Below are positions 33,255 to 52,642 of a stretch of DNA of 64,000 nucleotides, piece by piece. Origin of the DNA: Clostridiales bacterium (lineage in GTDB: Bacteria > Bacillota > Clostridia > Christensenellales > Borkfalkiaceae). Within the stretch, counting starts at the first letter, position 1. Each line of letters starts with the position of its first letter. A model generated the notes under the pieces. That model searched no databases and was not told the DNA's origin. It saw only the letters and a list, made by a program, of their open reading frames with translations. The stretch is taken from the NCBI GenBank assembly GCA_022508265.1, contig JAFLVP010000006.1:1-64000 (forward strand), read 5' to 3'. Position numbers and translations under genes: made by a program.

Positions 33255-36200
33255 ATGAAGAAATTTTTAATTGCTTTTTTGGCGGCTTTGGCGTGCACAC
33301 TTACGATAGTTGCTTTCGGTTGCGAAACGGACAACGGAAACAATGGAACTACTCCCAAAGAGTATACCGTTGAATTTGTGCCGACGGAAAATTTAGAGTA
33401 TGTCTGCGACGGGCTCGCAGATGGAGAGAACACGCTCACGGTAAAATCGGGGGCTACGGTAAGCTTTTCAATAACCGTTCCCTTGTTGTATGACGCTCCC
33501 ACGGTCTATGCAAACGGTAATACCGTAAAGGTTCAGGACGGAGTTTACTCGGTCGTCGTTACAAGTGATGTAACTATTACGACTGCCGAAGTAAAGATGC
33601 CTTCACCCTCTTTAACGGGTTCGGGCACGGATGATTCGCCCGTTCTTATCTCAACCCCCTCGGATTATATTTATATTGCAAACAGAATCAACGAGGGCGA
33701 TACCTCATTTATCAGTTTATATTACGCACTTGCAAACGATATTGATTTTGCCGGAACGGAAATTCCCGTTATAGGTAACGGCACTACGGCTTATTCCTAT
33801 TTCATGGGCAATTTCAACGGCAACGGACATACGATTTCCAACTTTAAAATCAAAACCAACGGAATATCGTATGTGGCGCTTTTCGGTTACGTTATTTCAT
33901 CCGGCGGTATGGACGGAACGGGTATGATCGTAAACCTCAACGTCGATAATTTCGAAATCGAAGCTCAGGCAAGCACGCTTAGCTCGATGTACGTCGGCTC
34001 GCTCGTCGGTTACGGAATTGCTTCAAGCGTTATTGCGTGCAGTGCAACCAACGGCTCTATCGTAGTCAACTCCGATAACGCCGTATTCTCGTATGTAGGC
34101 GGTGCGGTAGGTATTCAAAACTCGGCAACTCTGCCGAACGGAAGCAGTATCGAGTATTACCCCGCGTCTACAAGCTACGTTCACACGAGCGTAGATATTG
34201 ACTGCAGCGGCGGCGTATATGCTGCAGGCGGTGTGGTGGGATACGTCATTTCCGAACACGAAAGGGCAATTTCTTCCGTTATAAACTGCTATTCCGACGG
34301 TAACGTATTCGGCGGTATCAGTTCGGGCGGCGTAGTCGGTAATTTGAGTGATTATTCTTCTATAGCAAACAGCTATTCTTTGAGCGATGTTTACGCTTCT
34401 TCGAGATACTTGGACAACGAAACTTATTCCCACGCATATGCGGGCGGTCTCGTCGGCTACATCGGAAACAACGCAATAATTTCCGACAGCTTTGCAAAGA
34501 ACTCCTTAGTTGACGGCTATTCCGAGTCGGGCACAAGCTACGTCCATAAAGGCGAGATTGTCGGCGGAAAGGCGGAGGCGACCGCAGTGGCTACCGAAGG
34601 CATACTTTTCAACTGCAAGTCGGGAGACGAAGTTAATACCACGGCGAGCTTCTTCAAGAATACTCTCTACTGGCAGGCTTGCGACTGGATTATAACCGAA
34701 GGCTCTTACCCGGTTGTCAATTTGGATGAAGCACAACCCAACGAATTTACCGTTACGTTTAACTATTCGGGCAAAATTGCTGACGGCAAGTCGAGCAGGG
34801 ACCTCAAAATATCTTTAAGTGAAGATTTCTATTCGCCCTTGTTCTATTTCTACAGTGCGGAAAAGAACGTTGACGGAGAGGAGTTCGGCGATACGGTTCT
34901 TGCAGACAGCGGCGAAACCTCGTACGGATATTTCTTCGATCAAGCGCTTACCCAAAAGGTTCCCTACGGCTATATCCCCACGAGAAATATAACCCTTTAC
35001 ACGGGCTTTATTGATTACAGTGTTGTTGCGGGTACTTATTACCTCGTAGCGAGCAACTCAAAAAGAGAAGTTACGCTCACTCTCCATACTAACGGAACTT
35101 ATACTTACAACGACGGTGTGGAGTTTAACGATTTCTATACCTACAACGGAACAATAATTATATTCGGAAACGCGCTGTTTGCCCGTCTTTCGTCGTCTGT
35201 TACGGTCAGCGAAGACACTTCCGGCAATTCTGTCGCGCGTCCCGACTTAAACTATGATATCGCTAAGTTTGCGGCCGTTAAGACAGATAACGGACTTAAA
35301 ATCTTTGACGGCTCTTTCTTCACGGAAGAGGAATCTTTAATTGCCAACCGCTACGCGCTTTACGGCGAGTGGTACAACGGTACCGACGAATACGTGTTCT
35401 ATGCAAACTATACAGGCAAGCTCAACAACCAAAGCTTTACCTATACGTTGACGGCTTCGGGCGATCTTACGATTACCATCGGTTCTACAACCAAGACGGG
35501 TACCTATATCAGCGGAAAAATTACGGTGGATGGAACCCTTCTTTCCAAGTACGACATATTCAAGGGTGTTTGGGAAATAGCTTCCAACGTAAACAGAAGA
35601 TATGAGTTTGACGGTATGAACGGTTGGACTTATAAGGTCAAGGGTGCAGTTAAGGACAGCGGAACCTATACTATAGGGGAAAATGGCGTTGCAACTTTAA
35701 AATCTGGACTTACGGCAGAGATTGACGCAAGCGGACTTCTTCTTATAAAGAAAAACGGAGATAACGAATATTTCGTAAAAGAGGGAAGCTTCAGTGGAAT
35801 CTGGATTGACTTGGAGCACAATATACTTATTCATATTGACGGCTTCGGCAGCTCTCTTTCCGGTAACGCGCTCATAAATGAGGGCGGGGCAACCAGCGAA
35901 CTTATCTATATTCTTGACGGCTTCTTCGACGGCGACGGAAAAACTCATATAACCCTTTTGAACGGCTATTCGCTGTTCGGTTATCTTACCGTCAACGAGG
36001 ACGGCTCGTTTACGGGAACCTTCTTCTCGTCGAGTACTAAAGAATACTTTGGCGGATATAATTTCTATCTTTTGGATACGCTCGAAGGCGACTGGGTAGG
36101 CGAGGGTGTCCTCGGCGACATTACAATAGACAGTCTCAACTTCAACGGTTTGGGCCTTTTCGGTAACGGAAGCGTTTCTTTAAACGGTGGACCTGGAGTT

Positions 36201-37391
36201 GAATACACCCTCGATGACAATTTCGATGCTACTTTCGGCGATTATAAGGTTGAATTCGACGACGAAAACAACGTAATTACGATAACTCTCGGAGCCCAAA
36301 CGGTTGAACTTTACCGCAAGGACGAAATAAGCGCCTATGTGCTCATCTCCGAAGACGGCACAAAGTACGCGTTTAACGGCGGCGGCAACCTTTCAAAGGG
36401 CGGTAAGCTTACCGTAACCGACGCAAACGGAAATATTATTGCAGTCCTTGGCTATAAAAACGTCAGCGGCAGTATAGCGGATCTCGATTTAGAGATAGAG
36501 CTGTACAGCTCGTTCAGAGGAACGGAAACCGTCGGTACAATCACTATAAACGGCTATAAATTCGAATTAGATTATACGGGAAGTGTGAACGGCCTTCCCA
36601 AGGAAAAGACCACGCTCAATATAGATAATCCTTTCACGGGCAGCTGGTGTGTGAGCGCGTTCGACACTATTATCCAAATCGGCGAGTTTGACCTTTCAAA
36701 CAGTGCGACAGGTGACTTCCTTGATATGTCGAGTAAAGCCACGTTTACCTATTTGCCCGATTACGGTTGCTTAGTGGTGGGCTATATTACGGGCGAAATG
36801 ATTGCACCCGTTGAATTGTATCTCATAATGCTTTCTGAAGGCAATATGGTTATTTCAAGCTATAACGTGCTTACGACAGGCGATAATCTCATCTACTGCG
36901 CACCCAATGACGGACTTCAGGGCGAGTGGAACGATACTGCCGAAAACAGCCAGAAAAAGCTTAGATTCGACGGCTTGGCAGACAGCTTGTACACGGCAGG
37001 CGTAGCGTGGAACGAGAGCGGAGAAATCTTTTTCTATACCCGTCGTTTCGGCAATTACTATTTCTGGTCGGCAGACGGCGAAAATGCTTATACGATTAAA
37101 AAGAACGGCGATACGGAAGGTGCAAGCATGGTATATGAGAAGAACCGTTTTAACCGCATCGTATTCAACGAGTTCGATATAACGTCCTGCATTTTAAAGA
37201 TAGAAAGCGGCGACACTGTTTACGAATTCAATCTCACTGACGTAGAAGTTAACGGTGTAGAGAAGGAATATACGATTACAAAAGTAAACGGCGATATTAC
37301 CGAGCTTACAATCTTCGAAGACGCGCAGGACACCACGGGCGTGAAATTTATAGTAAATCACGCCGAAAAGACGATTGAACAAGCAGACTAA
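33255..37391 (+). CDS. Large secreted lipoprotein with GLUG-like repeats and divergent beta-rich repeats
   Basis: Signal peptide with lipobox-like VAFGC; ALANDIDFAGTEIPVIG...FNGNGHTISNFKI and GGVVGY/GGVVGN/GGLVGY units; then repeated GxW-containing beta-rich segments. Confidence 0.75.
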   Translation: MKKFLIAFLAALACTLTIVAFGCETDNGNNGTTPKEYTVEFVPTENLEYVCDGLADGENTLTVKSGATVSFSITVPLLYDAPTVYANGNTVKVQDGVYSVVVTSDVTITTAEVKMPSPSLTGSGTDDSPVLISTPSDYIYIANRINEGDTSFISLYYALANDIDFAGTEIPVIGNGTTAYSYFMGNFNGNGHTISNFKIKTNGISYVALFGYVISSGGMDGTGMIVNLNVDNFEIEAQASTLSSMYVGSLVGYGIASSVIACSATNGSIVVNSDNAVFSYVGGAVGIQNSATLPNGSSIEYYPASTSYVHTSVDIDCSGGVYAAGGVVGYVISEHERAISSVINCYSDGNVFGGISSGGVVGNLSDYSSIANSYSLSDVYASSRYLDNETYSHAYAGGLVGYIGNNAIISDSFAKNSLVDGYSESGTSYVHKGEIVGGKAEATAVATEGILFNCKSGDEVNTTASFFKNTLYWQACDWIITEGSYPVVNLDEAQPNEFTVTFNYSGKIADGKSSRDLKISLSEDFYSPLFYFYSAEKNVDGEEFGDTVLADSGETSYGYFFDQALTQKVPYGYIPTRNITLYTGFIDYSVVAGTYYLVASNSKREVTLTLHTNGTYTYNDGVEFNDFYTYNGTIIIFGNALFARLSSSVTVSEDTSGNSVARPDLNYDIAKFAAVKTDNGLKIFDGSFFTEEESLIANRYALYGEWYNGTDEYVFYANYTGKLNNQSFTYTLTASGDLTITIGSTTKTGTYISGKITVDGTLLSKYDIFKGVWEIASNVNRRYEFDGMNGWTYKVKGAVKDSGTYTIGENGVATLKSGLTAEIDASGLLLIKKNGDNEYFVKEGSFSGIWIDLEHNILIHIDGFGSSLSGNALINEGGATSELIYILDGFFDGDGKTHITLLNGYSLFGYLTVNEDGSFTGTFFSSSTKEYFGGYNFYLLDTLEGDWVGEGVLGDITIDSLNFNGLGLFGNGSVSLNGGPGVEYTLDDNFDATFGDYKVEFDDENNVITITLGAQTVELYRKDEISAYVLISEDGTKYAFNGGGNLSKGGKLTVTDANGNIIAVLGYKNVSGSIADLDLEIELYSSFRGTETVGTITINGYKFELDYTGSVNGLPKEKTTLNIDNPFTGSWCVSAFDTIIQIGEFDLSNSATGDFLDMSSKATFTYLPDYGCLVVGYITGEMIAPVELYLIMLSEGNMVISSYNVLTTGDNLIYCAPNDGLQGEWNDTAENSQKKLRFDGLADSLYTAGVAWNESGEIFFYTRRFGNYYFWSADGENAYTIKKNGDTEGASMVYEKNRFNRIVFNEFDITSCILKIESGDTVYEFNLTDVEVNGVEKEYTITKVNGDITELTIFEDAQDTTGVKFIVNHAEKTIEQAD

Positions 37392-37416
37392 TATATATTT
37401 AGGAAAGAGGAAAATT

Positions 37417-40400
37417 ATGAATTTATTGCGTAAAAAAATCAGACGCGGAGCTATATCATTCCTTGCACTTACTATGAGTGCAACTATGTGTGCAGGCACC
37501 GTTCTTATGGATTTTGGCGGAAGGAAATCTGTGACGGCTTTAGCCGAAACTGCCGAAAATGTTAAATTTACCGATATAACGGGACAAGTGGATACGAGTT
37601 CAATCGTAGAGAGCAATTTTAACTCCTCGGTGCAGCGGTCTGACGTTGCAACCTACGAAACGCGTACCGTCATAATTTCCCTCGACGGGAACTCGCTTAT
37701 AGATGATGCCAACGGCGAATATTCCGTTTCGGAATATATCAACACTCCGCTCGGCAGACAGTCTTTAAAGAGAATAAATAGCGAGCAGTCAAAGTTTTTA
37801 ACTTCGCTCTCTCTTCGCGGCATTAAGTACAACTTAAAGCATACTTATAATTCCGTAATAAATGCAGTTGCCATCGAAATCGATACCTCCAATGTGGCAC
37901 AGATTAAGAAAATGGGAGGGGTAAGCAGCGCGGTAATTTCCCGCACTTATGCCGCACCCAAGTTATACAAGGAGAACAGCTCGGCATCGTCTATTACTAA
38001 CAATACCAACGTTTACGCAACGGGTATTTACGACTCCTCTGCAGTAGCAGATTACGAATGGGGTACGGGTGCCGGCACGGTCGTTGCAATACTCGATACG
38101 GGTATTGACTACACTCATGAGGCATTCCAAACTATGCCGAGCAAACTCGGTATGGACAAAAACTATGTTGAAAGCATTTTCGGAAGTACTACCGCGTTTA
38201 GACGCACGGTTGAGCTCGGCGGAACTGCAAATGTTGACGACGTTTACGTAAGCGACAAAGTACCCTTCGCTTACGACTATGCAGATAACGATTTTGACGT
38301 TTATCCGTCCTATTCCAACCACGGCGCACACGTCGCGGGTATAGTAGGCGGTTACGATGAAAACGGCTACGACAGAAAGATAGGTAACGACGTCGTGCAT
38401 TACGACGAGACGTTTAAAGGCGTTGCAACCGAGGCGCAACTCGTCATCTGCAAAACCTTTACCGACAATCTTGAAAGCGAAAATATCGGCGGTGCGCTTA
38501 CCGAAGATATTCTTGCTGCCTTGGATGACTGTGTAGCGCTCGGCGTTGACGTAATAAATATGAGCTTGGGCACGACTTCAGGCTTTACTACGACCGATGA
38601 CGGCGACGACGAGGGCGAAATGATGGATAAGACTTATAAGTCTATTCAAAGTCAGGGTATAAGCCTCATCTGTGCGGCAAGTAACGACTACAGCTCGGGC
38701 TTCGGAAGCGTTTTCGGAACCAACCTTGCTTCCAATCCCGATTCGGCTACGGTAGGCTCGCCCTCTACGTTCTATTCCGCGCTCTCTGTTGCAAGTATCA
38801 ACGGACAGCGTTCACCCTACATGATCGCTGGCGACGGCACCGATGCAGATGAATTCCCCGTATTCTACGAGGAAGCTCGCGACGGCAACTCCGTAGAATA
38901 CGATTTCGACGGCGAACTGTTCGCTATGCTCGACGACAAAACTCAAACAAGACATACTTTCGAATACGTAGTAGTAGGAAAGGGCGGGGCGCAGGACTAT
39001 TCCACGACGGTCAAAAATCTTTTAAAGGACAGTGCGACAGGGAAATCACTCGGAAGATTGGCGCTTATTGAGCGCGGTAATACAACTTTCCTTGAAAAAA
39101 TTGAGCTTGCCTTTGAAATGGGCGCTATCGGCGCAATCATTTATAACAATGTATCCGGTACTATAAGGATGTCGCTCGGCGATATAGAGCAGTCAAGGCG
39201 TATTCCTGCCGTTTCTATAACACAGGACGCAGGCAACGAGCTTGTCTCGCGTGCACAGTCCGGTACTGGCAGAAGATTAGGTAAAATTACCCTCGATCTC
39301 TCACTAAACGCAGGACCTTTTATGAGTGATTTCTCCTCGTGGGGAACCACTCCGAACTTAAAGATTAAACCCGAAATAACTGCTCATGGCGGAGAAATAA
39401 TTTCTACCGTCCCCGGCGGTTACGATGCACAGAGCGGAACCTCAATGGCTTCCCCTAACATGGCGGGCGTAACTGCGCTTGTGCGCAACTACGTAAAGAC
39501 ACAGCTTCTTCCCGCTGACGCTACCCCTGTGCAGGTAACGCAGCTCACTAATCAGCTTTTGTTAAGTACGGCAACTACGGTTGTTGACCCGTACGGGCTT
39601 TTATATTCTCCCCGCAAACAGGGCGCGGGACTTGCAAGCCTTGACAATATAGTAAAGACCAAAGCCTATCTCTATACCGATTCCGGCTGCGGCGAGTACT
39701 GGTATAATGAGCTCGACGGCAGGCCCAAGGTAGAGCTCGGCGCGGATAAAAACAAGGTAGGCGAATATACTTTCAGCTTCAAGATAAAGAATTTCGGCGA
39801 TAGCCCTTTAACGTTCAGTCTTGATACCACGTTTATGACCGAATCACTGTCAAGCGACAAGCTTGCGGTTGCCGAAAAAGCTTATCTTCTCAAAGATATA
39901 GCTCCCCAATATTCCGTAAGCGGAGCATCCTTTGCGGGCGGAGAAATTACGGTGGCCGGAGGGCAGGACGCCAAAATTACCGTAACGGTCAAGCTTTCGG
40001 ATGCCGAAAAGAAATATATTGAGCAGAGTTTTAAAAACGGTATGTTCGTAGAAGGCTTTGTTAGCCTCAAAGGCTCGGGCGAACAGTGCGATTTAAGTAT
40101 TCCTTTCCTTGCGTTCTACGGCGATTGGGATAATCTGCCCATGCTCGACTACGACTGCTTTGATATAGCTGAATCGCAGAGAGACAAGTCAGTTGAAGAA
40201 AAGGATAAACTCAATCCCACAGTATTTGCAACGCAGGCGTATGCATCTTACGGCGGAAATAAATACGTAATTCCCATCGGCAACTATGTTTATATTCAGG
40301 ATGAATTAGAAGACCAGATTTACACCACCGAGGACCACGGCGCTATTTCCCGCTTTGACGAAATAGTCAGCGAGGAGGGTATAGGCAATTACTATACGGC

Positions 40401-43400
40401 TAATCAGATACGGTGTCTGTATGCGGGACTGTTAAGAAATGCCTATAAAGTTGAATGGCGCATGTATGATGCCTACACGGGCGAGTTAATAACGAACAGT
40501 TACAAAAACAGAATAAGCAAGGCGTATTCTAACGGTGGAGCTGCCGTTCCCGGATTTGTTGAGTTGAAGCTCACGCCCGACGAACTCGGACTTGTCAACA
40601 ACGGCAAGTACCGCATGGAATTTGACTTCTATTTCAATGAAAATTCCGTATATTCCGAGGAAAATACGTTTGCTTTCAGTTTCTATCTCGACTACGATGC
40701 ACCTGTTCTTCAAGATGCTCGTATCAGATACGAAGACTATAAAGACGGTAATAAAAATAAACAGAATATTTATCTCGAACTCGATATATACGACAATCAC
40801 TACGCTCAATCGGTAATGCTTGCATACATTGATACAACGGGCGGAAGACGCGAGATGAAGCTTGCAACCGAATATTTCACTCCCGTACAAAACGCTGTTA
40901 AAAACGGAGTAACTACCGTTTCTATAGACGTCACGGATATTTGGGAACAGTACAAAAAGACTGCAGGTGGGCTCATTGTTCAAATAGATGACTATGCGCT
41001 CAATCACTCGACCTATGTGCTCGGAACTCTCAACGGTTCGAATATCGGCGAGATGGACACTGCGTTGAACGCAAACGTAACTCCCGCAACCTTCGAGCTT
41101 GCAGAGGGCGAGGACAAGATAACCGTAGGGGTGAACGAAACTCATACAGTTGCGCTTGAATATGAGGGAAATGCAAATATTTCCAACTTCGAGTGGACCG
41201 CAAACAATCCCTATGTTAAAGTTAAAAACGGCGAGATAGTGGGCGTGCGCACCACTGGCAGAACACCTGCAACCGTCATAGTCAGCAACCGCAAGGGTGT
41301 CAGTAGGACAATTCAGGTAACGGTAGTGGACAACGGCAAGACTTTGGGCTGGCCTTCGATTTCCTTCGACGTTATTAAAAACTATGCAGATGCTCTTGTC
41401 AAGGCAAGTGGCTATGTTCGGGTACATGCGGGCAAGGATATAGCGCTCTCCGTGCTTACCGACCCTTGGTACTATCCCAACGCGTTGGATTTGGTGTGGT
41501 CAACCGACAACCCGACGGTTGCCACGGTGGACCAGAGCGGAAACGTTCATACCATAACGAAAGGCAACGCAATCATCAAGGCAACGATTAAAGGTACGGC
41601 GTATTCCGCAAGTGTTTTGCTCGCCGTGCAAGATGAATTTACGATAGATAGTTTCAGTCTTACAGAATACCACGGCGACGGTGTTGTAAAGGACGGGCAG
41701 GAAGGCGTAGTCGAAATTCCCGACGGGAAGAACATTATGACGATAGGCGAGCGCGCCTTTGCCGACAATACAAAGATAACCAAAGTTATAATCCCCAAAT
41801 CGGTAACGGAAATCGGTGAATACGCATTTATTGGCTGTACAAATCTTAAAGAAGTTTGCTTTGTTAGCGATGCTGACGACGATTACACTGCCGACGGTTT
41901 CGTTTCGGCTTCGGGGTTGAAGCTCATAAGAAAATACGCGTTCAAGGGCTGCAGCTCGCTTGAAACTCTCGATTTGCGAAACTGCAAAGTCATTTCGATA
42001 GCTCACGAAGCCTTTGCCAACTGCGTAAATTTAAAACAAATTATCAAATCAACCGCTATAGGAACGGCGTACGACAGAGCGTTTATGGGCTGTAGTTCGC
42101 TTGAATCTATTGATTTGTCCGGACTTCACGTCGCAGGAAGAAACGTGTTCAGCGGCTGTACTTCGCTTACGAGTATAACAACCGATAAGTTTACGGCTAT
42201 CGGCGACAATATGTTCACTTCGCTTCATTACGTATATCAGGAAATGGATTTCGATACGGGCGATTGGAATATTAGGGTTACAGATTACGAAGCGTGCAAT
42301 AAACTTGATAATTTAGTTATAAAAGCGGATACGGTAGGCGCGAACGCGTTTGCAGGCTGTACGGGAATTACGAAAGTTGAATTTACTAACGTAATTAATG
42401 ACACGCCTGATGACTCGATCGTGTTAAAAATATCCGATAACGCGTTCAGAAACTGCACGAATCTTGCTACGGTTCAATTCAACGGAAAGGTCAAGAGTAT
42501 AGGCGCGTATGCGTTTGCAAACACGGCTATAACTTCAGTAACTCTGCCCGACGGCTTGATTTCACTCGGTGCAGGCGCGTTCGGCGGCACGAATATGCCT
42601 ACGATAGCAGGAGGAAGCGACTATCAGATAAGCGGCGACTTTATATTAAATAAAGAAGGAACTATGCTGCTCCTGTATATCGGTTCGGGCACAACCTGCG
42701 AAATTCCCGCAACCGTAACTGAGATTGCGGCAAACGCATTTGCAGAAAGCAGTATAACTTCTTTGACAATTCCTGCAACAGTTGATATAATAGGAGAAGG
42801 TGCGTTCCAAAACAGTGCACTTTCCTCGATAACCATAGAAGCAAACCTTGCGGAAATTCCCGCGTATGCTTTCTTTGGAACACATATTTCGCAAATAACG
42901 TTGCCCTCTACGGTAACTTATATCGGCGATTATGCATTTGCAAATTGCGCACTCACAACGTTCAACTTCTCTCCTGAGTTGGGCGCAGAGCTCGGAAACT
43001 ATGTATTCTACAACTGTAAGCAGCTAGTAAATATTGCTTTGGACAGTAAAATTTCCGTGCTCGGCGACGGCGTGTTTGGTGGCTGTACTGCACTTGAAAC
43101 GGTAACTCTGCCCGCGCTCGAATATCTCGGTGCATACACATTTTTCGAAACCCCTTCGCTTAAGACGGTCACGTTTGCGTCAGGTGCGAAGGTCACGGGT
43201 AATTATACCTTTGCGACTCAAAATGCGGCAGGCAGAGCAAACCTCACAGCTGTTACGCTCGGTTCGTCTCTTACGACGATAGGAGAGGGCGCGTTCTACA
43301 ACTGCGCGGCTCTTACCTCAATCAACCTCGGCGGTGCGGAAATCATAGAGGCAAGTGCGTTCTTCGGATGTACTTCTCTTGTTACCGTTACGGGGCTTGA

Positions 43401-44874
43401 AAACGTTGTATCAATCGGAGCGCTCGCGTTCTATAACTGCGGACTTGAAAATCTTAATCTTCTAAACGCAGAAAATATCGGCGACGGCGCGTTTATGATT
43501 GAAAACGAAGATAGCGCATATACAAGCGTCTCCATACCCAAGGCGGTTACGATAGGTAACTACACGTTTGCTGGCGGCGGCGAAAGCACAATAGCTCTTC
43601 CCGCAACTCTTGTAAAGATTGGCGGCGGTGCGTTTGCATCTTCCGTAAATCTGACTTCGTTCACAATCGACGCAAGCAACAAGATCTTTTTCAAGGACGC
43701 AGACGGCGTACTTTACAGATATATTACGGACAGCGTGTACGAGCTGGTTGCATATCCCGCGGGCGTTACGGCAAAGACTTTGACCGACGATTACGCTAAA
43801 AACAAGAAAACTTACGTGGTTTTGGACGGCACCATTTCGGTTGCGGCATCAGCGTTTGAGGGGCTTAAAACGGGTGCAATAGAACACATAGTTCTGCCCT
43901 ATACGCTCAAAATTATCGGTAGCAGCGCATTCTTCAACAGCGGAATAAAGGAATACCGCTTTGAAAGCATCAATGCTCCCGTACTTTTCACGGAGTATAT
44001 TGATTGGGTAAAACAGTATATAGAAGATGCTGGCGACGTTTACGTGGGTTATTTCTATGCCAATTTCGAAGATCACTTCATTAACCACAGCAGTTTCGGC
44101 GATGGATTTAACCCTGCACAGCTTACGATGTACCGTCCCGAAAACGGCGTAGGGTACGATATCCTGATTTACGCACAGTATTTTGCAAAATCCGTAACTA
44201 CGGGCATAAATATCGACGACACAACCCGTGAAGTCCGCGATTTAATTTTGACACTGCCTACGGCAAGCGAAGTCAGCGGATGGAATTCTTCCAATAAACC
44301 CAAGAGCGAAGTGGAGGAATTCTCCGAGCTTGTAAAGAGAATACGTTCTCTCTTTAACACGATAATCAGCGAGGATCAGCTTAATCTCCTCGGCGAAGAG
44401 AATATAAACCATCTCGGCGACGTCGAAGTTGCGCTCCGTGCGGTGAAAGCGGCTTACAATATTCCCGTCAGCATTACGAGTGTAACGAGAGTAGAGGGCT
44501 CATACAAGAGCGTATACTATGCGGGCGAAAAGTTCGATATGAAGGGTTTACAGGTTATCGTAACGTATGACGACTTCTCAACCGAAACAGTCGGCGCAGA
44601 TAAACTCACACTCGTAACTACAGAGCCTCTCACGGTTTACGACCGTTCGGTAATCGTTTCTTACAATGGGGTAGAGTGTTATCTCGTAGTAACCGTTAAT
44701 AAAAATGATACGACTGCTCCTGTCGGTGGTGGCGGCTCAAACAGTGGATGCAACAGCGGTTGCAATAGCGTTACGGACAATTCTGACAGTATAATAATAA
44801 CTTTTGCGGGTCTCGGTGCACTTTTGTTAGTTGCGTCGACGCTTCGTAGAAGAAAGAGGATGACAAATGACTAA
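37417..44874 (+). CDS. Giant cell-surface subtilisin-like (S8) serine protease with PA domain, Ig-like domains, BspA-type LRRs and a C-terminal TM anchor
   Basis: Catalytic motifs VAILDTGIDYTHEAF (Asp), SNHGAHVAGIVGG (His), QSGTSMASPNMAGV (Ser); PA-like RLALIERGNTTFLEKIELAFEMGAIGAIIYNN; LRR_5 repeats ~41700-43980; TM plus RRRKR C-terminus. ATG 37417 preceded by GGAAAGAGG. Confidence 0.88.
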   Translation: MNLLRKKIRRGAISFLALTMSATMCAGTVLMDFGGRKSVTALAETAENVKFTDITGQVDTSSIVESNFNSSVQRSDVATYETRTVIISLDGNSLIDDANGEYSVSEYINTPLGRQSLKRINSEQSKFLTSLSLRGIKYNLKHTYNSVINAVAIEIDTSNVAQIKKMGGVSSAVISRTYAAPKLYKENSSASSITNNTNVYATGIYDSSAVADYEWGTGAGTVVAILDTGIDYTHEAFQTMPSKLGMDKNYVESIFGSTTAFRRTVELGGTANVDDVYVSDKVPFAYDYADNDFDVYPSYSNHGAHVAGIVGGYDENGYDRKIGNDVVHYDETFKGVATEAQLVICKTFTDNLESENIGGALTEDILAALDDCVALGVDVINMSLGTTSGFTTTDDGDDEGEMMDKTYKSIQSQGISLICAASNDYSSGFGSVFGTNLASNPDSATVGSPSTFYSALSVASINGQRSPYMIAGDGTDADEFPVFYEEARDGNSVEYDFDGELFAMLDDKTQTRHTFEYVVVGKGGAQDYSTTVKNLLKDSATGKSLGRLALIERGNTTFLEKIELAFEMGAIGAIIYNNVSGTIRMSLGDIEQSRRIPAVSITQDAGNELVSRAQSGTGRRLGKITLDLSLNAGPFMSDFSSWGTTPNLKIKPEITAHGGEIISTVPGGYDAQSGTSMASPNMAGVTALVRNYVKTQLLPADATPVQVTQLTNQLLLSTATTVVDPYGLLYSPRKQGAGLASLDNIVKTKAYLYTDSGCGEYWYNELDGRPKVELGADKNKVGEYTFSFKIKNFGDSPLTFSLDTTFMTESLSSDKLAVAEKAYLLKDIAPQYSVSGASFAGGEITVAGGQDAKITVTVKLSDAEKKYIEQSFKNGMFVEGFVSLKGSGEQCDLSIPFLAFYGDWDNLPMLDYDCFDIAESQRDKSVEEKDKLNPTVFATQAYASYGGNKYVIPIGNYVYIQDELEDQIYTTEDHGAISRFDEIVSEEGIGNYYTANQIRCLYAGLLRNAYKVEWRMYDAYTGELITNSYKNRISKAYSNGGAAVPGFVELKLTPDELGLVNNGKYRMEFDFYFNENSVYSEENTFAFSFYLDYDAPVLQDARIRYEDYKDGNKNKQNIYLELDIYDNHYAQSVMLAYIDTTGGRREMKLATEYFTPVQNAVKNGVTTVSIDVTDIWEQYKKTAGGLIVQIDDYALNHSTYVLGTLNGSNIGEMDTALNANVTPATFELAEGEDKITVGVNETHTVALEYEGNANISNFEWTANNPYVKVKNGEIVGVRTTGRTPATVIVSNRKGVSRTIQVTVVDNGKTLGWPSISFDVIKNYADALVKASGYVRVHAGKDIALSVLTDPWYYPNALDLVWSTDNPTVATVDQSGNVHTITKGNAIIKATIKGTAYSASVLLAVQDEFTIDSFSLTEYHGDGVVKDGQEGVVEIPDGKNIMTIGERAFADNTKITKVIIPKSVTEIGEYAFIGCTNLKEVCFVSDADDDYTADGFVSASGLKLIRKYAFKGCSSLETLDLRNCKVISIAHEAFANCVNLKQIIKSTAIGTAYDRAFMGCSSLESIDLSGLHVAGRNVFSGCTSLTSITTDKFTAIGDNMFTSLHYVYQEMDFDTGDWNIRVTDYEACNKLDNLVIKADTVGANAFAGCTGITKVEFTNVINDTPDDSIVLKISDNAFRNCTNLATVQFNGKVKSIGAYAFANTAITSVTLPDGLISLGAGAFGGTNMPTIAGGSDYQISGDFILNKEGTMLLLYIGSGTTCEIPATVTEIAANAFAESSITSLTIPATVDIIGEGAFQNSALSSITIEANLAEIPAYAFFGTHISQITLPSTVTYIGDYAFANCALTTFNFSPELGAELGNYVFYNCKQLVNIALDSKISVLGDGVFGGCTALETVTLPALEYLGAYTFFETPSLKTVTFASGAKVTGNYTFATQNAAGRANLTAVTLGSSLTTIGEGAFYNCAALTSINLGGAEIIEASAFFGCTSLVTVTGLENVVSIGALAFYNCGLENLNLLNAENIGDGAFMIENEDSAYTSVSIPKAVTIGNYTFAGGGESTIALPATLVKIGGGAFASSVNLTSFTIDASNKIFFKDADGVLYRYITDSVYELVAYPAGVTAKTLTDDYAKNKKTYVVLDGTISVAASAFEGLKTGAIEHIVLPYTLKIIGSSAFFNSGIKEYRFESINAPVLFTEYIDWVKQYIEDAGDVYVGYFYANFEDHFINHSSFGDGFNPAQLTMYRPENGVGYDILIYAQYFAKSVTTGINIDDTTREVRDLILTLPTASEVSGWNSSNKPKSEVEEFSELVKRIRSLFNTIISEDQLNLLGEENINHLGDVEVALRAVKAAYNIPVSITSVTRVEGSYKSVYYAGEKFDMKGLQVIVTYDDFSTETVGADKLTLVTTEPLTVYDRSVIVSYNGVECYLVVTVNKNDTTAPVGGGGSNSGCNSGCNSVTDNSDSIIITFAGLGALLLVASTLRRRKRMTND

Positions 44875-46294
44875 AAAATTAAGGCTCGTTTTAATAGCGG
44901 TTTTTGCGTTCATAGCATGCGCATGTCTTTTTGCGGGTTGTACTCTCAAGCCGTCCTTAAAAGATGTTTTGGATGACTTGGATAGTAAAGGCGCAGTAGT
45001 TGCCGTGACTTATTTTGCAAACGACGGCAATTTCAACGATAAATCCGATAAGGACAAAACAGACAGCGACAAAGACGGCGAGGAAGGCGATGAGAACTCG
45101 GATAGTCAAAGTAGCTCAAGTAGCAACGCTCCAAAAAACAACAACGGCAAAGTAAGAACTATACATTACAAAGTCGGCAGTAAAGCTATATGTATCGACT
45201 CTCAAGATAATTCAAGTTTTGAGTCGGGTTCTATAACTGTAGCTGCTACGGATTCAAGCAGATACGAGCTTGCCGGTTGGTATGTAGCTGAAGTTGACAG
45301 CAACGGCAATCCTTTATACGAGGACGGGACCCCCTATGAGTTCAGCTACGATACGCAATATTTTGACTCATCTAAAAAGATAAAACACACGGGCGAGCTG
45401 TTTGATTTTTCAACCGCTCTTGAAAAAGGCAGGCACTATTACTTGGTTGCCGAGTGGAGAAAAATTCAGACAGTGCAAGTGCTTCTTGCCGGCGAGGCGT
45501 CTTCAATTACGGTTGCAGGCAAAACTTATAACAAGGGTGATTTGCTGAACGATATAGCATTCCAATCTAACGGAATGATTCCCAAGCCCAACAACCCGCT
45601 AACAGGAACTGTTACGAACGCAACTTTTATTGAATTCTATTCGGATGAAGACTGCACTCAACTGTTCGAAGGCTGGCCAATACAGTTTGCCGACCACAAG
45701 GATGACGACCCTGAAAATCCCTTTACAATATATGCAAAATATATAGAGGGCATTTGGACGGTCGTTAAGAACGCAGGCGATGTAAGCAGCATGTTCAGAA
45801 ATGCAGATACGTACACAAACCAATATTATATCTTGAACGATATTGACTGTAATGGAAGAGCAATTGATGCCTTTACGGGCGATAACGGTTTCGCTTGTAC
45901 AATCCGAGGAAACAGTTGCACAATAAGCAATTTAAAAGTAAGCGGATCGTACAGAGGAAATCAGTTAAGTATTTCGTTCTTTGGTGCGATAAAAAGCTCT
46001 GCCAAAATCAGTGGGCTTACTTTTGAAAACGTTACGCAAGTATACACAGTAAATGCAAATACAACTATAAATCCTGGCATCTTTTTTGCTTTCTCGTCTA
46101 TTGATGAGGGTGCCAATATAGATGGCGTTGTATTATCCGGTAGTATGGAAGTAACAATCAACGCGTCCAATGGATATGTCAAAAATTTAGCCGGCGGTGC
46201 GACCAATAACTGGAAATTCGGCGGCTACACGGACGACAGCGAATATTCCGGTGGAATAACAGTAACGAGCAATTCGTCTTTGACGATAAAATAA
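44867..46294 (+). CDS. Lipoprotein with charged low-complexity linker and GLUG-like module
   Basis: Lipobox LFAGC; DKSDKDKTDSDKDGEEGDENSDSQSSSSSN; YYILNDIDCNGRAIDAF...IRGNSCTISNLKVSGSY. Confidence 0.65.
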   Translation: MTKKLRLVLIAVFAFIACACLFAGCTLKPSLKDVLDDLDSKGAVVAVTYFANDGNFNDKSDKDKTDSDKDGEEGDENSDSQSSSSSNAPKNNNGKVRTIHYKVGSKAICIDSQDNSSFESGSITVAATDSSRYELAGWYVAEVDSNGNPLYEDGTPYEFSYDTQYFDSSKKIKHTGELFDFSTALEKGRHYYLVAEWRKIQTVQVLLAGEASSITVAGKTYNKGDLLNDIAFQSNGMIPKPNNPLTGTVTNATFIEFYSDEDCTQLFEGWPIQFADHKDDDPENPFTIYAKYIEGIWTVVKNAGDVSSMFRNADTYTNQYYILNDIDCNGRAIDAFTGDNGFACTIRGNSCTISNLKVSGSYRGNQLSISFFGAIKSSAKISGLTFENVTQVYTVNANTTINPGIFFAFSSIDEGANIDGVVLSGSMEVTINASNGYVKNLAGGATNNWKFGGYTDDSEYSGGITVTSNSSLTIK

Positions 46295-46326: not shown

Positions 46327-48912
46327 ATGAATAAAAAATTAGGTAAAATTTTAAGTTGCGGAGTATGCCTTACTATGGCTGCCGTATTTACGGCAGGCTG
46401 TACGCCTGGCGCAACAACCGGCACGGGTGCAAACCCCGAAACCCGCCCTTTTGTTATGGCAATAGGCGCAACCGACGGTAACTTCAGCCCGTTCTTCGCT
46501 ACGGCGCAGTACGATACGCAGGTAACGGAGCTTACTCAAATAAGCATGCTTAATGCAGACGCGAAAGGTAATATTGCCTACGGAGAAAACGAACCCACCG
46601 TTGTTCTCGATATGAAAGAAACTTTGTACGAGGATAAAGAGGGCACCATAGTATCCACTTCAGGCAGTATGAACGGTAAGAGCGTTTACCAATTTGTAAT
46701 CAAAAACGGTATTAAATTCTCTAACGGTTCCTACCTTACTATTAAGGACGTGCTTTTCAATCTCTACGTTTATCTCGACCCCGTATACTTCGGTTCGTCC
46801 ACCATTTATTCAACCGACATCATAGGTCTTGCCGCATACAGGAATCAAGACCCTACGGCGGACGCAGACAGCGATATCTCCGGTACGTTTGATGCCGATG
46901 CTCAGACGCGAATAAATCAGCTTATGGAGTATCTTGAGGACGGCACTATTATGGGTACTACTGAGGCGCAGCTCAAAGAAGACATAGAGCTTTTAAAGAA
47001 GCTCTATCGCGAAGAAGTTGAAAGTGACTGGACCTCCGTCTACGGCACGCTTGATTCATATACAAAAGAATACAGATTTACGAAAAACTGGGAAATTTAT
47101 TATTTCAATGAAGGCTTGATTTCTGTTCTTTACGACCTTACTGAGAGCGGTAACCGCGTTGAAAGAAAGGATGCTGACGGAAAATATCTTACGAGCCTCG
47201 ACGAAAAGGACGAAAGCGGTAATGATAAAACCGATTTCCGCGAGGAGATGGAAGCAGCTTTAAATGACGAAAGCAAGATATCCGCAGCAATGACAAAATA
47301 CGATTGTACCCGTGAGGAGGCTTTGGGATACGTAGAGCGTGATACCGCAATAGACAGAGTTTACAGCACCAAAACGGCAAGCAATCTTACCCTTCTTTCA
47401 ATACTTACTGAGGGCTGGGCATCTGCAAGTAATCTTCGCGATAAATTTGCAAAAGAGGCTATGTCCGATTACTTTGAGAACAACCGTAAGGATGACGGCT
47501 CGCTCGTAGTTCCCAACATTTCGGGTATAACCACATATAAAACTTCGAACTTCAACGGTAAAAATCTCGGAGAAACTCACGATGTTTTGCAAGTGGAAAT
47601 AAACGGTGTAGACCCCAAGGCTATTTGGAATATGGCTTTCCAGGTTGCCCCCGCATACTATTATTCAGGCGTATTCAACAATGTTGATTACAGAAATATA
47701 GATATTGCACAAAATCAGTTTGGCGTATGCTTCGGAAACTCTACGTTCTTTGATACCATTCTCGGAAGTACCGACAAGAGTAAATTGCCCGTAGGTGCAG
47801 GCGCTTACAAAGCATCGACCAAAAACGGCGGAGATGCTCCTAACGGTGACGTTTTCCACAATAATAAAGTTTCCTATTACGTTCGTAACGATTATTTTGA
47901 AACGGTAGGTAAAGGTATTTCAAACGCTAAAATAAAATATGTGCGCTATAGAGAAGTAGAGGACGCCAGCCTTGTTCAGGTTTTAAAAACAGGCGAAGTT
48001 GACTACGGTGAACCTAACTGTACGCCCGAAAACATTGCAGCTTTGCCCGGCGGCGCAGTTACTCTCGGCTATCAAACGCCCAAGTCCTCAGGCTACGGCT
48101 ACGTAGGTATTAACCCCAAATATATTCCTGATATCAACGTTCGTAGGGCAATAATCAGAGCTATGAATATCGGAACGACCATCAGATTCTACACCGAAGA
48201 ATATGCGGAAGAGTTACACAGACCTATGTCCACCGCAAATTGGGTGTATGACTATATCAAAAATGACGGAGCTTATTACAATTACGAATCCGATCCTGCA
48301 AAAATCAAAGCATCACTTAAGGGTTGGGATTTTAGCAGCGGTGTAGGTAAAAAGGATGGATATACTTTAAAATATACCTTTACAATCGCGGGCGGAACAA
48401 CCGATCACCCCGCATATGCTATGTTCAACGATGCAGCTAAAATTTTAAACAACGCAGGCTTTGACATTTCTGTTACGACCGATAATAACGCATTAAAGAG
48501 TCTTGCAACGGGTTCGCTTGCAGTATGGGCTGCGGCTTACACCTCACCCATTGACCCCGATCTCTATCAGCTGTATCATAAAGACAGTAAGGCAACGAAC
48601 GTAAAGAACTGGGGCTACGACGTTATCAAGCAGAACACCAATAACCTTTACACATACGAGAAAGGTGTTCTTGAGGACTTGAGCGACCTCATTATCGAGG
48701 CAAGACAGACTACGTCACAGATGGAACGCGGAGCTAAATATAAGGATGCGCTTGACCTTATTATGGAGCTTGCAATTCAGCTTCCTACCTATCAGAGAAA
48801 CGACCTCGTAGTTTACAACAGAATACTCCTTGACGGCAACACGCTCAATAAGAGTGCAAGCGCATACGCGGGCGTTCTCAACAGAATTTGGGAAGTAAAT
48901 TACAGTAAATAA
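46327..48912 (+). CDS. oppA: ABC transporter oligopeptide-binding lipoprotein (SBP family 5), unusually long
   Basis: Lipobox FTAGC; FVIKNGIKFSNGSYLTIKDVLFNLYVYLDP, INPKYIPDINVRRAIIRAMN; followed by OppBCDF-type genes. Confidence 0.88.
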   Translation: MNKKLGKILSCGVCLTMAAVFTAGCTPGATTGTGANPETRPFVMAIGATDGNFSPFFATAQYDTQVTELTQISMLNADAKGNIAYGENEPTVVLDMKETLYEDKEGTIVSTSGSMNGKSVYQFVIKNGIKFSNGSYLTIKDVLFNLYVYLDPVYFGSSTIYSTDIIGLAAYRNQDPTADADSDISGTFDADAQTRINQLMEYLEDGTIMGTTEAQLKEDIELLKKLYREEVESDWTSVYGTLDSYTKEYRFTKNWEIYYFNEGLISVLYDLTESGNRVERKDADGKYLTSLDEKDESGNDKTDFREEMEAALNDESKISAAMTKYDCTREEALGYVERDTAIDRVYSTKTASNLTLLSILTEGWASASNLRDKFAKEAMSDYFENNRKDDGSLVVPNISGITTYKTSNFNGKNLGETHDVLQVEINGVDPKAIWNMAFQVAPAYYYSGVFNNVDYRNIDIAQNQFGVCFGNSTFFDTILGSTDKSKLPVGAGAYKASTKNGGDAPNGDVFHNNKVSYYVRNDYFETVGKGISNAKIKYVRYREVEDASLVQVLKTGEVDYGEPNCTPENIAALPGGAVTLGYQTPKSSGYGYVGINPKYIPDINVRRAIIRAMNIGTTIRFYTEEYAEELHRPMSTANWVYDYIKNDGAYYNYESDPAKIKASLKGWDFSSGVGKKDGYTLKYTFTIAGGTTDHPAYAMFNDAAKILNNAGFDISVTTDNNALKSLATGSLAVWAAAYTSPIDPDLYQLYHKDSKATNVKNWGYDVIKQNTNNLYTYEKGVLEDLSDLIIEARQTTSQMERGAKYKDALDLIMELAIQLPTYQRNDLVVYNRILLDGNTLNKSASAYAGVLNRIWEVNYSK

Positions 48913-48942: not shown

Positions 48943-49941
48943 ATGGTTAAATATGTAATTAAACGGCTCTTGCTTGCGGCATTTATTCTTTTGATAGTAT
49001 CAATATTTCTTTACTTTCTTGTAAGAATGATGCCGCTCGACGCAATAACAAAAAAATATTTGGAAACGCACACCGGTGATAAGGAGCTCAATGAAGCAGA
49101 GTTGCAGGAAATACTTGCGCGTTATAACCTTGCGGATAGCAGCTTTGGCGGTATCGTAAACGGCTGGTGGCAGTGGATAAAAAATTTCTTTTCCGGCGAT
49201 ATGGGTACGTCCTTTGAACAGAACCGTCCGGTTGGGGATATAATCAAAGAAAATATGGGAATTTCCTTCTCAATCTCTTTGATATCCCTTATTTTGGAGG
49301 TGGTCATTGCAATTCCTCTCGGAATTAAGTGCGCTTGCAACCAGTACGGCAAGTTGGACTATGCTGCAACTGTGCTTACAATGATTGGCATATCTTTCCC
49401 GACTTTCTTCTTTGGTAATTTGATTATCAAATTCTTTGCCGTCGATTTAGGCTGGTTCCCTGCAAACAATATAAACAGTAACCTCCTTACAACGGCAACA
49501 GACTGGGAAAGATTTGTTGATACGCTTTGGCATATGGTCTTGCCTCTATTCGTACTGACAGTGCTATCCATAGGCTCGCTTATGAGATATACGAGAACGA
49601 ATACGTTGGAAGTACTCAACGCCGACTACATAAGAACAGCGCGTGCTAAAGGTCTTTCAGAGGGAAAGGTCGTGTATAAGCACGTATTCAGAAACACTAT
49701 GATTCCCCTTGTAACGGTGTTGGCAAGTACGCTTCCGGGCCTTTTCGGAGGTGCTATGATTACCGAAACGGTCTTCGGCATCCCCGGTATAGGTAAGGTT
49801 GCTTACGATTTGATGTACAATGGCGACATACCCTTTATAATGGCGTATAATATGTTTATTGCCGTTTTAACTGTCATAGGTATTTTGCTTGCCGATATTA
49901 TGTATGCGGTTGTTGACCCTCGAGTCAAGATCGGCAAATAA
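48943..49941 (+). CDS. oppB: Oligopeptide ABC transporter permease, OppB/DppB type
   Basis: YVIKRLLLAAFILLIVSIFLYFLVRMMPLD, GMGTSF-like GDMGTSF, EAA loop DYIRTARAKGLSEGKVVYKHVFRNTMIPL. Confidence 0.93.
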   Translation: MVKYVIKRLLLAAFILLIVSIFLYFLVRMMPLDAITKKYLETHTGDKELNEAELQEILARYNLADSSFGGIVNGWWQWIKNFFSGDMGTSFEQNRPVGDIIKENMGISFSISLISLILEVVIAIPLGIKCACNQYGKLDYAATVLTMIGISFPTFFFGNLIIKFFAVDLGWFPANNINSNLLTTATDWERFVDTLWHMVLPLFVLTVLSIGSLMRYTRTNTLEVLNADYIRTARAKGLSEGKVVYKHVFRNTMIPLVTVLASTLPGLFGGAMITETVFGIPGIGKVAYDLMYNGDIPFIMAYNMFIAVLTVIGILLADIMYAVVDPRVKIGK

Positions 49942-49950
49942 GGAGTAGAT

Positions 49951-51051
49951 ATGGAAGAAGAAAAAATATCCACCCCGGAAGTTGAAGAAGCTGTTCAAAG
50001 CGGTAGCGGCGCAGCTCTCGTAACAAAGGAAGACGAGCTCCACGGAGAGAACCTCTCCGACAGAGTAAAAACTCTTTCTCCGGGAAGAACTGTTTTAAAA
50101 AGATTTTTCCGCTCAAAGCTTTCAATCGTCGGACTTGTTATACTTTTAACATTGTTTCTGATATCGTTTTTCGGCCCGCTGTTTTCACCGTGGGGCGAAA
50201 CCGACCCCGACAGAAGAGCGGTAGAGTTGGGTGTGCCCGAAATTATCACAAAAGAAATAGTATATGTCGTTGACGGGGTGGAATATACCGCCTACGACGT
50301 GGTACTGGAGTGGCCTAAAGACGGAGTATTGGCGAGGGGCAACATTTCGGCAGATCATTGGCTCGGCACCGACAAGTGGGGCTTCGATATATTCACAAGG
50401 CTTATGCTCGGCGGTAGAATATCGCTTACTATAGGCTTTGTCGTAATAATCTTGGAGACGCTAATAGGTGTAGTGCTCGGCGGTATAGCCGGCTATTTCG
50501 GCGGGAAAGTAGATAACGTCATAATGCGTATAGTCGACGTTATAATGTGTATTCCGCAACTGCCGATAATGCTTATTTTATCGTCAATGTTCGTTTATAT
50601 GGGTATTGTCGATATTTCAAAGCTATACTACATGATGGGTATTTTGACGCTATTGGGCTGGGCAGGTACTGCGCGGCTCGTGCGCGGACAGATATTATCC
50701 CTTAGAGAGCAAGAATTTATGCTTGCCGCAAAGTGTTCGGGACTTTCAGTAAAGAGGAAGATATTCAAACATCTGTTGCCAAACGTATTGCCCCAGCTCA
50801 TTGTTACTATGACGCTCGGACTCGGCAGTGTAATTTTGATGGAAGCAACTCTTGGATTCCTCAATATAGGTGCGCCGCTCGGTACGGCAACTTGGGGCAC
50901 AATGATAAGCGAGGCACAGGATTTTAACGTGCTGCAGAATTTCCCCAATTTCTGGATACCGCCCGGCATATGTATAACCCTTGCTATTCTGGCGTTTAAC
51001 TTTGTCGGCGACGGCTTGAGAGACGCTTTTGACCCCAAAATGAAGAGGTAA
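49951..51051 (+). CDS. oppC: Oligopeptide ABC transporter permease, OppC/DppC type
   Basis: HWLGTDKWGFDIFTRLMLGGRISL, EAA loop EFMLAAKCSGLSVKRKIFKHLLPNVLPQL. Confidence 0.93.
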   Translation: MEEEKISTPEVEEAVQSGSGAALVTKEDELHGENLSDRVKTLSPGRTVLKRFFRSKLSIVGLVILLTLFLISFFGPLFSPWGETDPDRRAVELGVPEIITKEIVYVVDGVEYTAYDVVLEWPKDGVLARGNISADHWLGTDKWGFDIFTRLMLGGRISLTIGFVVIILETLIGVVLGGIAGYFGGKVDNVIMRIVDVIMCIPQLPIMLILSSMFVYMGIVDISKLYYMMGILTLLGWAGTARLVRGQILSLREQEFMLAAKCSGLSVKRKIFKHLLPNVLPQLIVTMTLGLGSVILMEATLGFLNIGAPLGTATWGTMISEAQDFNVLQNFPNFWIPPGICITLAILAFNFVGDGLRDAFDPKMKR

Positions 51052-51055
51052 ATAA

Positions 51056-52642
51056 ATGTCGGAAACAAAAAACGAGAAGAAATCGCATTATATTTCCGGA
51101 AAAGAATCGCGCAGAATTGCGAAGGAAAATATAAAAGCGACTAAATACTACGAAAAATTAAAGAAAAAGAGAAAGGATCCTTCCGAGTACCTTACCGAGA
51201 TGAAAGACGAGAAGAATATTCTCGAAATCGACGATTTGCACACCTTTTTCTTCACTGACGCGGGTACGGTTAAAGCCGTAAACGGCGTAACCTTTTCCAT
51301 ACCCCAAGGGGCTACGGTCGGCGTCGTGGGAGAGAGCGGCTGCGGAAAGAGTGTAACTTCGCTTTCCACAATGCAGCTCGTTCAGGGCCCTGCGGGACAG
51401 ATTGTCAGCGGCTCTATACGCTTTAAGTCGAATATGTTCAAGCTCGACAGTAAGGGTAAGAAAATTCCCGTTTACGAGACCAAAGTGGACGAAAACGGGC
51501 AGGTTCAGACTGTTTTGGACGAGCGCGGTAAGCCCGTTATAAAGAAGAACAACCTCGGCGGAAATATGTACGAGATGGAAGACCAGGTAGTGGACATTGC
51601 AAAAATGCCCGTAAGTACCATGCGTACTATTCGCGGCAGGGAAATTGCAATGATTTTCCAAGAGCCTATGACATCTTTGAACCCGGTATTTACAATAGGC
51701 AATCAGCTTGACGAAGTTGCTTTTCTGCACATACAGGGAATTTCCAAAGCTAAGGCTAAAGAGCGCAGTATAGAGATGCTCAATCTCGTAGGTATTGCCG
51801 ACCCCGAGGGCGTTTACAAAAAGTTCCCTCATCAGCTTTCTGGCGGTATGCGTCAGAGAGTTATGATTGCAATGGCGCTTCTGTGCAACCCCAAGCTTAT
51901 AATAGCCGACGAACCTACGACCGCGCTTGACGTTACGATTCAGGCGCAGATTATAGACCTTTTAAGAAATATTAAGAGCAAAATCAACGGCAGTATTATG
52001 CTTATCACGCACGACTTGGGTGTCGTTGCCGAGATGGCTGATTTCGTTGTGGTTATGTATGCGGGCAAAATAATTGAAATGGGTACGGCAGCGGATATTT
52101 ACGACAACCCTCTGCATCCCTATACGATTGGTCTGCAAAAGAGCAAACCCACCGTAGACAGCGAAGTTGACTCGCTCTACTGCATTCCCGGTTTCGTTCC
52201 CAACCCCGTAAATATGCCCAACTATTGCTATTTCCGCGACAGGTGCGACAGGTGCCGCGAGGAGTGTGCGGGCGATTATCCTGAACTTATAAAAGTAAGC
52301 GATACACACAGCGTTTCCTGCTATCTCTATAAGGCAGGTACAGACGCAACACAGGCTAACAAGGCTGTAGAGCCCGAAAAAGCGGCAGAACCTGCATCAA
52401 AAATTGCAGAACCTGCAAAGAGTGCGCCGGCAACCGATGATAATAAAGCGCAGTCAGAGCAGGTCAATAACTCAGAGCCTAAAAAACCGGCCTCTGTGAC
52501 TGTTGTGAAGCCTAATAACGCGCAATCCGATAAGGACGCTAAAAAGGTAGTAGTCAAAGTAGTCAAAAAATCGGGAGAAATGCACAAATCTGCTACAAAT
52601 CAAGCCAACGAGGCAAAAGATAAACAAGGAGAGCAAAAATGA
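51056..52642 (+). CDS. oppD: Oligopeptide ABC transporter ATPase, OppD type, with N-terminal extension, internal insertion and Ala/Lys/Glu-rich C-terminal tail
   Basis: Walker A GESGCGKSVTSLS, signature LSGGMRQRV, Walker B LIIADEPTTALDV, CYFRDRCDRCREEC. Confidence 0.92.
   Translation: MSETKNEKKSHYISGKESRRIAKENIKATKYYEKLKKKRKDPSEYLTEMKDEKNILEIDDLHTFFFTDAGTVKAVNGVTFSIPQGATVGVVGESGCGKSVTSLSTMQLVQGPAGQIVSGSIRFKSNMFKLDSKGKKIPVYETKVDENGQVQTVLDERGKPVIKKNNLGGNMYEMEDQVVDIAKMPVSTMRTIRGREIAMIFQEPMTSLNPVFTIGNQLDEVAFLHIQGISKAKAKERSIEMLNLVGIADPEGVYKKFPHQLSGGMRQRVMIAMALLCNPKLIIADEPTTALDVTIQAQIIDLLRNIKSKINGSIMLITHDLGVVAEMADFVVVMYAGKIIEMGTAADIYDNPLHPYTIGLQKSKPTVDSEVDSLYCIPGFVPNPVNMPNYCYFRDRCDRCREECAGDYPELIKVSDTHSVSCYLYKAGTDATQANKAVEPEKAAEPASKIAEPAKSAPATDDNKAQSEQVNNSEPKKPASVTVVKPNNAQSDKDAKKVVVKVVKKSGEMHKSATNQANEAKDKQGEQK

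Follow-up and report, generated by a model that had tools for sequence, protein, structure and literature searches.

The window analysed here is a 64,000-nucleotide stretch of a Clostridiales genome. Between 33255 and 53838 it carries a conserved operon made up of a GLUG lipoprotein, an S8-LRR protease, a family-less lipoprotein, an Opp binding protein and OppBCDF. The protease ends in a cysteine-bearing tail. The genes and the parts of the tail are as follows.

33255..37391 (+), large predicted lipoprotein with GLUG motifs, the upstream neighbour, which most orthologous loci also have next to the S8 gene
37417..44874 (+), S8 cell-envelope-proteinase-like protein, assigned from its signal peptide, domain matches, catalytic motifs and Cys tail
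44725..44769 (+), Gly/Ser linker that contains GGGGSNSGCNSGCNS, the Cys motif, from sequence and ortholog comparison
44770..44790 (+), polar spacer VTDNSDS that separates the Cys motif from the helix, from sequence
44791..44844 (+), TM segment IIITFAGLGALLLVASTL of weak hydrophobicity, with a Kyte-Doolittle mean of 2.16 over its best 19 residues
44845..44874 (+), cytoplasmic end RRRKRMTND, short and basic, with the stop codon, from sequence
44867..46294 (+), predicted lipoprotein of 475 aa without a Pfam match, downstream and conserved next to the S8 gene
46327..48912 (+), oligopeptide-binding protein (SBP_bac_5), a predicted lipoprotein, downstream of the 475-aa lipoprotein
48943..53838 (+), OppB, OppC, OppD and OppF-like ABC permease/ATPase genes, downstream

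The S8 protease corresponds to the open frame 37375-44874 (+) of 2,499 aa, and its start is probably the ATG at 37417, which is preceded by GGAAAGAGG, rather than the TTG at 37375. The end of the gene overlaps the start of the 475-aa lipoprotein gene by 8 nt (ATGACTAA). The protein comprises an S8 domain with a PA insert, fn3_5, Big_2, about nine BspA-type LRR_5 blocks and a Big_3-like domain (a weak match), followed by the Cys tail. The motifs of the catalytic triad are intact (DTGID at residue 241, NHGAHVAG at 315 and GTSMASP at 688) and, together with the PA insert and fn3_5, they identify the protein as of the cell-envelope proteinase kind. Its closest relatives of solved structure are C5a peptidase, chemokine protease and cell-envelope proteinases (PDB 7edd, 5xyr and 6vjb; phmmer E 1.8e-61 for 7edd and 3.5e-55 for 6vjb). 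A signal peptide is present, and Sec export is predicted.

Of the 22 loci that we compared, nearly all kept the order of large lipoprotein-like gene, S8, ~470-aa lipoprotein-like gene, oligopeptide-binding protein and OppB/C/D/F. The exceptions were G013, which lacks most of this neighbourhood, and the two loci of G015 and G016, with the Opp genes on the opposite side of S8. In lactic acid bacteria, surface proteinases supply peptides for uptake. Since the S8 gene heads an oligopeptide-permease operon, the best reading of its product is a cell-envelope proteinase that supplies a peptide importer, and by analogy with lactic acid bacteria the natural reading is that it would generate peptides for Opp uptake. 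The tail of such a protease would then be a means of retaining it at the surface.

The C-terminus translates as GGGGSNSGCNSGCNSVTDNSDS-TM-RRRKRMTND, exactly as the initial annotation had quoted it, with 44725-44874 reading GGGGSNSGCNSGCNSVTDNSDSIIITFAGLGALLLVASTLRRRKRMTND and a stop. The paired cysteines reflect a 12-nt duplication of a GCNS unit (44746-44757 and 44758-44769, 10/12 identical). An LPXTG-like motif is absent from the tail sequence, which agrees with the initial annotation. The generic LPXTG_anchor model TIGR01167 scored 18.3 bits on the isolated tail against a cut-off of 15.9, through a match confined to profile positions 7-32, that is, to the hydrophobic and basic part. With this exception, none of the NCBIfam CTERM models reached its cut-off on the tails tested.

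Conservation of the cysteine tail

The last 157 aa of the S8 protein served as the query of an ortholog search, which returned orthologs in 61 genomes. All genomes are metagenome-assembled, with completeness of 65-99%, and calls of absence share that error; tail detection relied on short models. For the comparison of anchor types we sampled 22 S8 orthologs without regard to their tails. A G-C tail on a weak helix was found in 11/22, for example GCGGGCGS (G009), CGGCGS (G014) and CAGGCGS (G019), and the other 11/22 had a Cys-free and mostly more hydrophobic anchor, such as GGGNKLNPAVIYGPIIGVVV (G021). Helix hydropathy over 19 residues was 1.66-2.47 for the G-C tails versus 2.34-3.17 for the Cys-free anchors (Mann-Whitney p=1.4e-4, uncorrected for kinship), with the Cys-free helices of G005 and G008 overlapping or nearing the Cys-tail range. 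The G-C tails had 6-19 residues past the helix and the Cys-free anchors 6-134. Anchor type also changes between near relatives: G006 is without Cys and its sister G017 has it, so that in G006 the Cys was either lost or never present. The recurrence of the tail exceeds chance, given its presence in half of the tail-blind orthologs and the matches of the tail HMM in many genomes of the genus.

We refer to the S8-type tails also as class 2. In the 20 genomes that carry them, that of the window included, the proximal Cys motif G-C-[GN]-[ST] was present in 20/20 tails, an invariance somewhat inflated because the set was partly gathered with a Cys-favouring model. The helices of this set span 1.66-2.47 in hydropathy, and its Cys lies 5-12 residues ahead of the hydrophobic core. 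In the window, the invariant Cys is that of the second GCNS unit. The distal Cys is absent in G032 and in HAN107 (G073; MAG 'Clostridiales bacterium isolate HAN107', JAFLVO010000001.1). The HAN107 ortholog is 92% identical to the window S8 protein and has a single Cys (...GGCNSVSDNFDS...); between these two genomes the tail is 66.7% identical and the catalytic domain 97.4%, with GCNSV retained. Thus, the distal Cys is dispensable and the proximal Cys is invariant, and the pair of cysteines that had been taken as the signature of the tail reduces to one. The tripartite layout itself (invariant G-C motif, weak helix, short basic end) holds, and in a genus where no sortase was detected.

Neither the tail HMM nor motif searches returned a second protein matching the tail models in the window's own genome. 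The remaining matches to GC[NSGD]xGC there lay out of frame, away from a C-terminus or within a Gly-Cys-rich frame on contig C13. This last is a 189-aa frame rich in Gly-Cys repeats (GCGCGCGSN..., L007, near base 565 of G000:C13) and is unrelated to the tail. Elsewhere, G006, G017 and G107 each have a second protein, of ~1,730 aa, with a class-2-like tail, and in G019 such a tail ends a protein of 1,000 aa. A lack of other proteins with the motif had been named as grounds for abandoning a sorting signal; the lack is real within the window genome and disappears across the genus.

Relatives also carry a one-Cys tail, GGC[GNS][SG]-TM-RRK, on other large secreted proteins, with up to six per genome (class 1; examples at L071, L073, L076, L078, L080, L081, L085, L088 and L188-L196). 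Its Cys lies mostly 2-3 residues ahead of the hydrophobic core.

Candidate processing enzymes

Sortase PF04203 was found in none of the 23 genus genomes scanned, the window's included, and was present in 8 genomes from other families of the order. Exosortase PF09721 did not appear above cut-off in 37 genomes, again including that of the window. Rhomboids are encoded by three genes in the window genome (G000:C4 and G000:C23), occur in 3/22 other genus genomes, and were not found in the class-2 genomes G004, G009, G013, G014, G017 and G019. With exosortase not found and rhomboids sporadic, exosortase and rhombosortase were ruled out as partners of the tail.

The CPBP proteases of the genus split into several clades. 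Clade I (~305 aa) is present in nearly all genus genomes, including that of the window (G000:C8, its only CPBP), whether or not the S8 tail is of the Cys type. The resident protein carries the EExxxR, FxxxH and HxxxN motifs and scores below the NCBIfam cut-offs (MrtS 43.1 vs 130 and Mrt_core 20.1 vs 100 bits). Clade II, which we call CPBP-II (~265 aa), occurs in 22/93 genus genomes (CPBP-II loci L150, L157, L160, L165, L173, L175, L177, L183 and L185) and matches the Mrt_core, MrtJ and MrtS profiles, in each case below cut-off. Its motifs, E124-E125-R129, F158-H162 and H206 with D/N four residues on, are invariant in 8 sequences, and one member scored 73.0 bits with PF02517 against a cut-off of 22.4. 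By the EExxxR, FxxxH and HxxxN/D motifs and this match, CPBP-II is a CPBP (Rce1-like) protease.

CPBP-II was found in 18/21 genomes with class-1 tails versus 4/69 without (Fisher 2e-12). The association was seen in the discovery set of 37 genomes (8/10 vs 1/27) and again in a hold-out of 56 further genomes (10/11 vs 3/45, p=8e-8). On a UvrA tree, CPBP-II and the class-1 tail each underwent 14-15 changes, and independent pairs were concordant in 6.3 and discordant in 0.3 cases (median p 0.03). General adjacency of the two genes was ruled out, as they share a contig in three genomes only and are not adjacent. At these loci, L354 (G116:C86), L355 (G086:C5) and L356 (G082:C6), a protein with a one-Cys tail is encoded 3.6-14 kb from CPBP-II; predicted lipoproteins and membrane proteins lie in between.

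CPBP-II was found in 0/20 genomes that carry the S8-type tail, among them the window's, a result that rules it out as partner of that tail. A dedicated sorting enzyme in the genome, which the initial annotation had proposed, is therefore unsupported: sortase and exosortase were undetected, rhomboids are sporadic, CPBP-II is missing from all 20 genomes, and the resident CPBP belongs to a clade independent of tail type. The co-occurrence check that had been suggested with it gave a good candidate partner for the class-1 tails and nothing for the S8-type tail. Since class-1 tails co-occur with CPBP-II, the idea of a Cys-CTERM signal in this genus is sound. The class-1 tail and the fast-evolving CPBP-II are a candidate for a new Cys-CTERM/myxosortase-like pair, one not represented in the window genome.

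Discussion

The tail of the S8 protease is a real Cys-type C-terminal signal, a variant related to the known signals of this type. Our main reading, to which we give a probability of roughly 0.45, is that it serves as a processed and probably lipidated anchor, handled by the resident CPBP or by an unrecognised general enzyme. Processing and lipidation are plausible from the sequence comparisons. They are favoured by the G-C-[GN]-[ST] motif in all 20 tails, the weaker helices, the short ends and the switching of anchors among close relatives. Further support comes from the tracking of class-1 tails with CPBP-II, the motifs of the resident CPBP, the Opp operon and the Cys-dependent cleavage by MrtX: cleavage of TraA by this CPBP-family protease depends on the motif cysteines, with lipidation hypothesised (PMC11980579). 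On the other side, none of the enzymes scanned follows the S8-type tail, the clade of the resident CPBP is indifferent to tail type, the window genome has a single substrate, and plain TM anchors suffice in half of the orthologs.

For acylation, cleavage and the enzyme responsible, we infer the following course. The protease would be exported by Sec via its signal peptide, after which the weak helix and basic end would keep it membrane-bound. The key residue would be the proximal Cys, that of G-C-[GN]-[ST], which would most likely be acylated, and the helix would then be cleaved off distal to the acylated Cys, as proposed for MYXO-CTERM. Any cleavage would fall to the resident CPBP, encoded on G000:C8 at about 10.4 kb, or to an enzyme not recognised as such. 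The outcome would be a lipid-anchored protease that cooperates with the Opp importer of the same operon. Because the Cys lies 5-12 residues before the core, and not mostly 2-3 as in class 1, cleavage next to it may fall outside the plane of the membrane.

A serious contender, short of even odds, is a plain, uncleaved C-terminal TM anchor in which G-C would either be a relic or do no more than place a thiol at the surface of the membrane, for a disulfide, S-acylation or a metal contact. It would account for the Cys-free helices that serve half of the orthologs, the failure of any enzyme to track the S8-type tail, the single carrier in the window genome and the distance of the Cys from the helix. 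It also fits a fast-evolving tail that, by the comparison of the two closest genomes, tolerates the loss of one Cys. However, the proximal motif persists in 20/20 tails despite diverging flanks, and orthologs with plain anchors have systematically more hydrophobic helices.

That the tail is a sorting signal cut by a dedicated but unrecognised enzyme, restricted to the genomes with S8-type tails, appears unlikely to us. Its general layout matches the class-1 tails that accompany CPBP-II, CPBP-II is itself missing from the class-2 genomes, and class-2-like tails are found on second proteins in G006, G017, G107 and G019, all of which speak for such an enzyme; the scanned sortase, exosortase and rhomboid families, however, do not fit. 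A divergent LPXTG-type, wall-anchored sortase substrate is very improbable and, to the extent of assembly completeness, refuted, since the TIGR01167 score and the kinship of the protease domains with LPXTG-anchored cell-envelope proteinases are set against the lack of any LPXTG-like motif and the 0/23 genus genomes with PF04203, although genomes from elsewhere in the order, in other families, encode it.

A broader reading, which we consider less likely than not, is that the genus holds two undescribed Cys-type sorting signals. The one-Cys class would be processed by CPBP-II as its dedicated protease, and in the S8 type the proximal Cys would first be lipidated and the tail then cut by another enzyme. 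If this were true, a lipid-anchored cell-envelope proteinase system would replace sortase in apparently Gram-positive bacteria. Among the genomes scanned, the genus is without a detected sortase yet has very large secreted proteins that need to be retained at the surface. For the one-Cys class, statistics support a CPBP partner, and a Cys signal paired in this way would carry the myxosortase principle over to Clostridia. The proteinase beside Opp, with Cys and plain anchors exchanged among its orthologs, offers a natural experiment on the role of the Cys motif.

Among known proteases, the window protein shares S8 with PA insert and fn3_5 with lactococcal PrtP-type cell-envelope proteinases and with S8 peptidases of the C5a/chemokine type. 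It differs from these in its long BspA-type LRR part and in being anchored by a Cys tail, or in orthologs by a plain TM, instead of LPXTG. Within the genus, class-1 tails resemble the S8 type in G-C with small residues, weak helix, basic end and location on large secreted proteins. They differ in the closer position of the Cys, in having almost always one Cys, and in their pairing with CPBP-II (found in 18/21 of their genomes, against 0/20 of those with S8-type tails).

A limited literature search found no published source on Cys-CTERM signals in Clostridia. JDVT-CTERM/MrtJ, Synerg-CTERM/MrtS and archaeal MrtA are reportedly Cys-type signals with CPBP enzymes (Haft 2024 and NCBIfam). A two-gene pairing is not seen here, and the MrtS, MrtJ and Mrt_core profiles match CPBP-I and CPBP-II far under the curated cut-offs. 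With MYXO-CTERM (TIGR03901)/MrtX of Myxococcota, to which the tail had been likened from the start, it has in common a small-residue motif with an invariant signature Cys, a C-terminal helix and a short basic cytoplasmic end. The likeness does not extend to the curated model, as TIGR03901 gave 8.0 bits on the window tail and 18.6 on the best tail of a relative against a cut-off of 20. Nor does it extend to lineage, substrate number or enzyme, the window being from Clostridia, with one substrate in its genome instead of many and no MrtX-type CPBP above cut-off. The S8 tail, though no member of that family by curated model or enzyme, appears by analogy most similar in its working to the MYXO-CTERM/myxosortase system.
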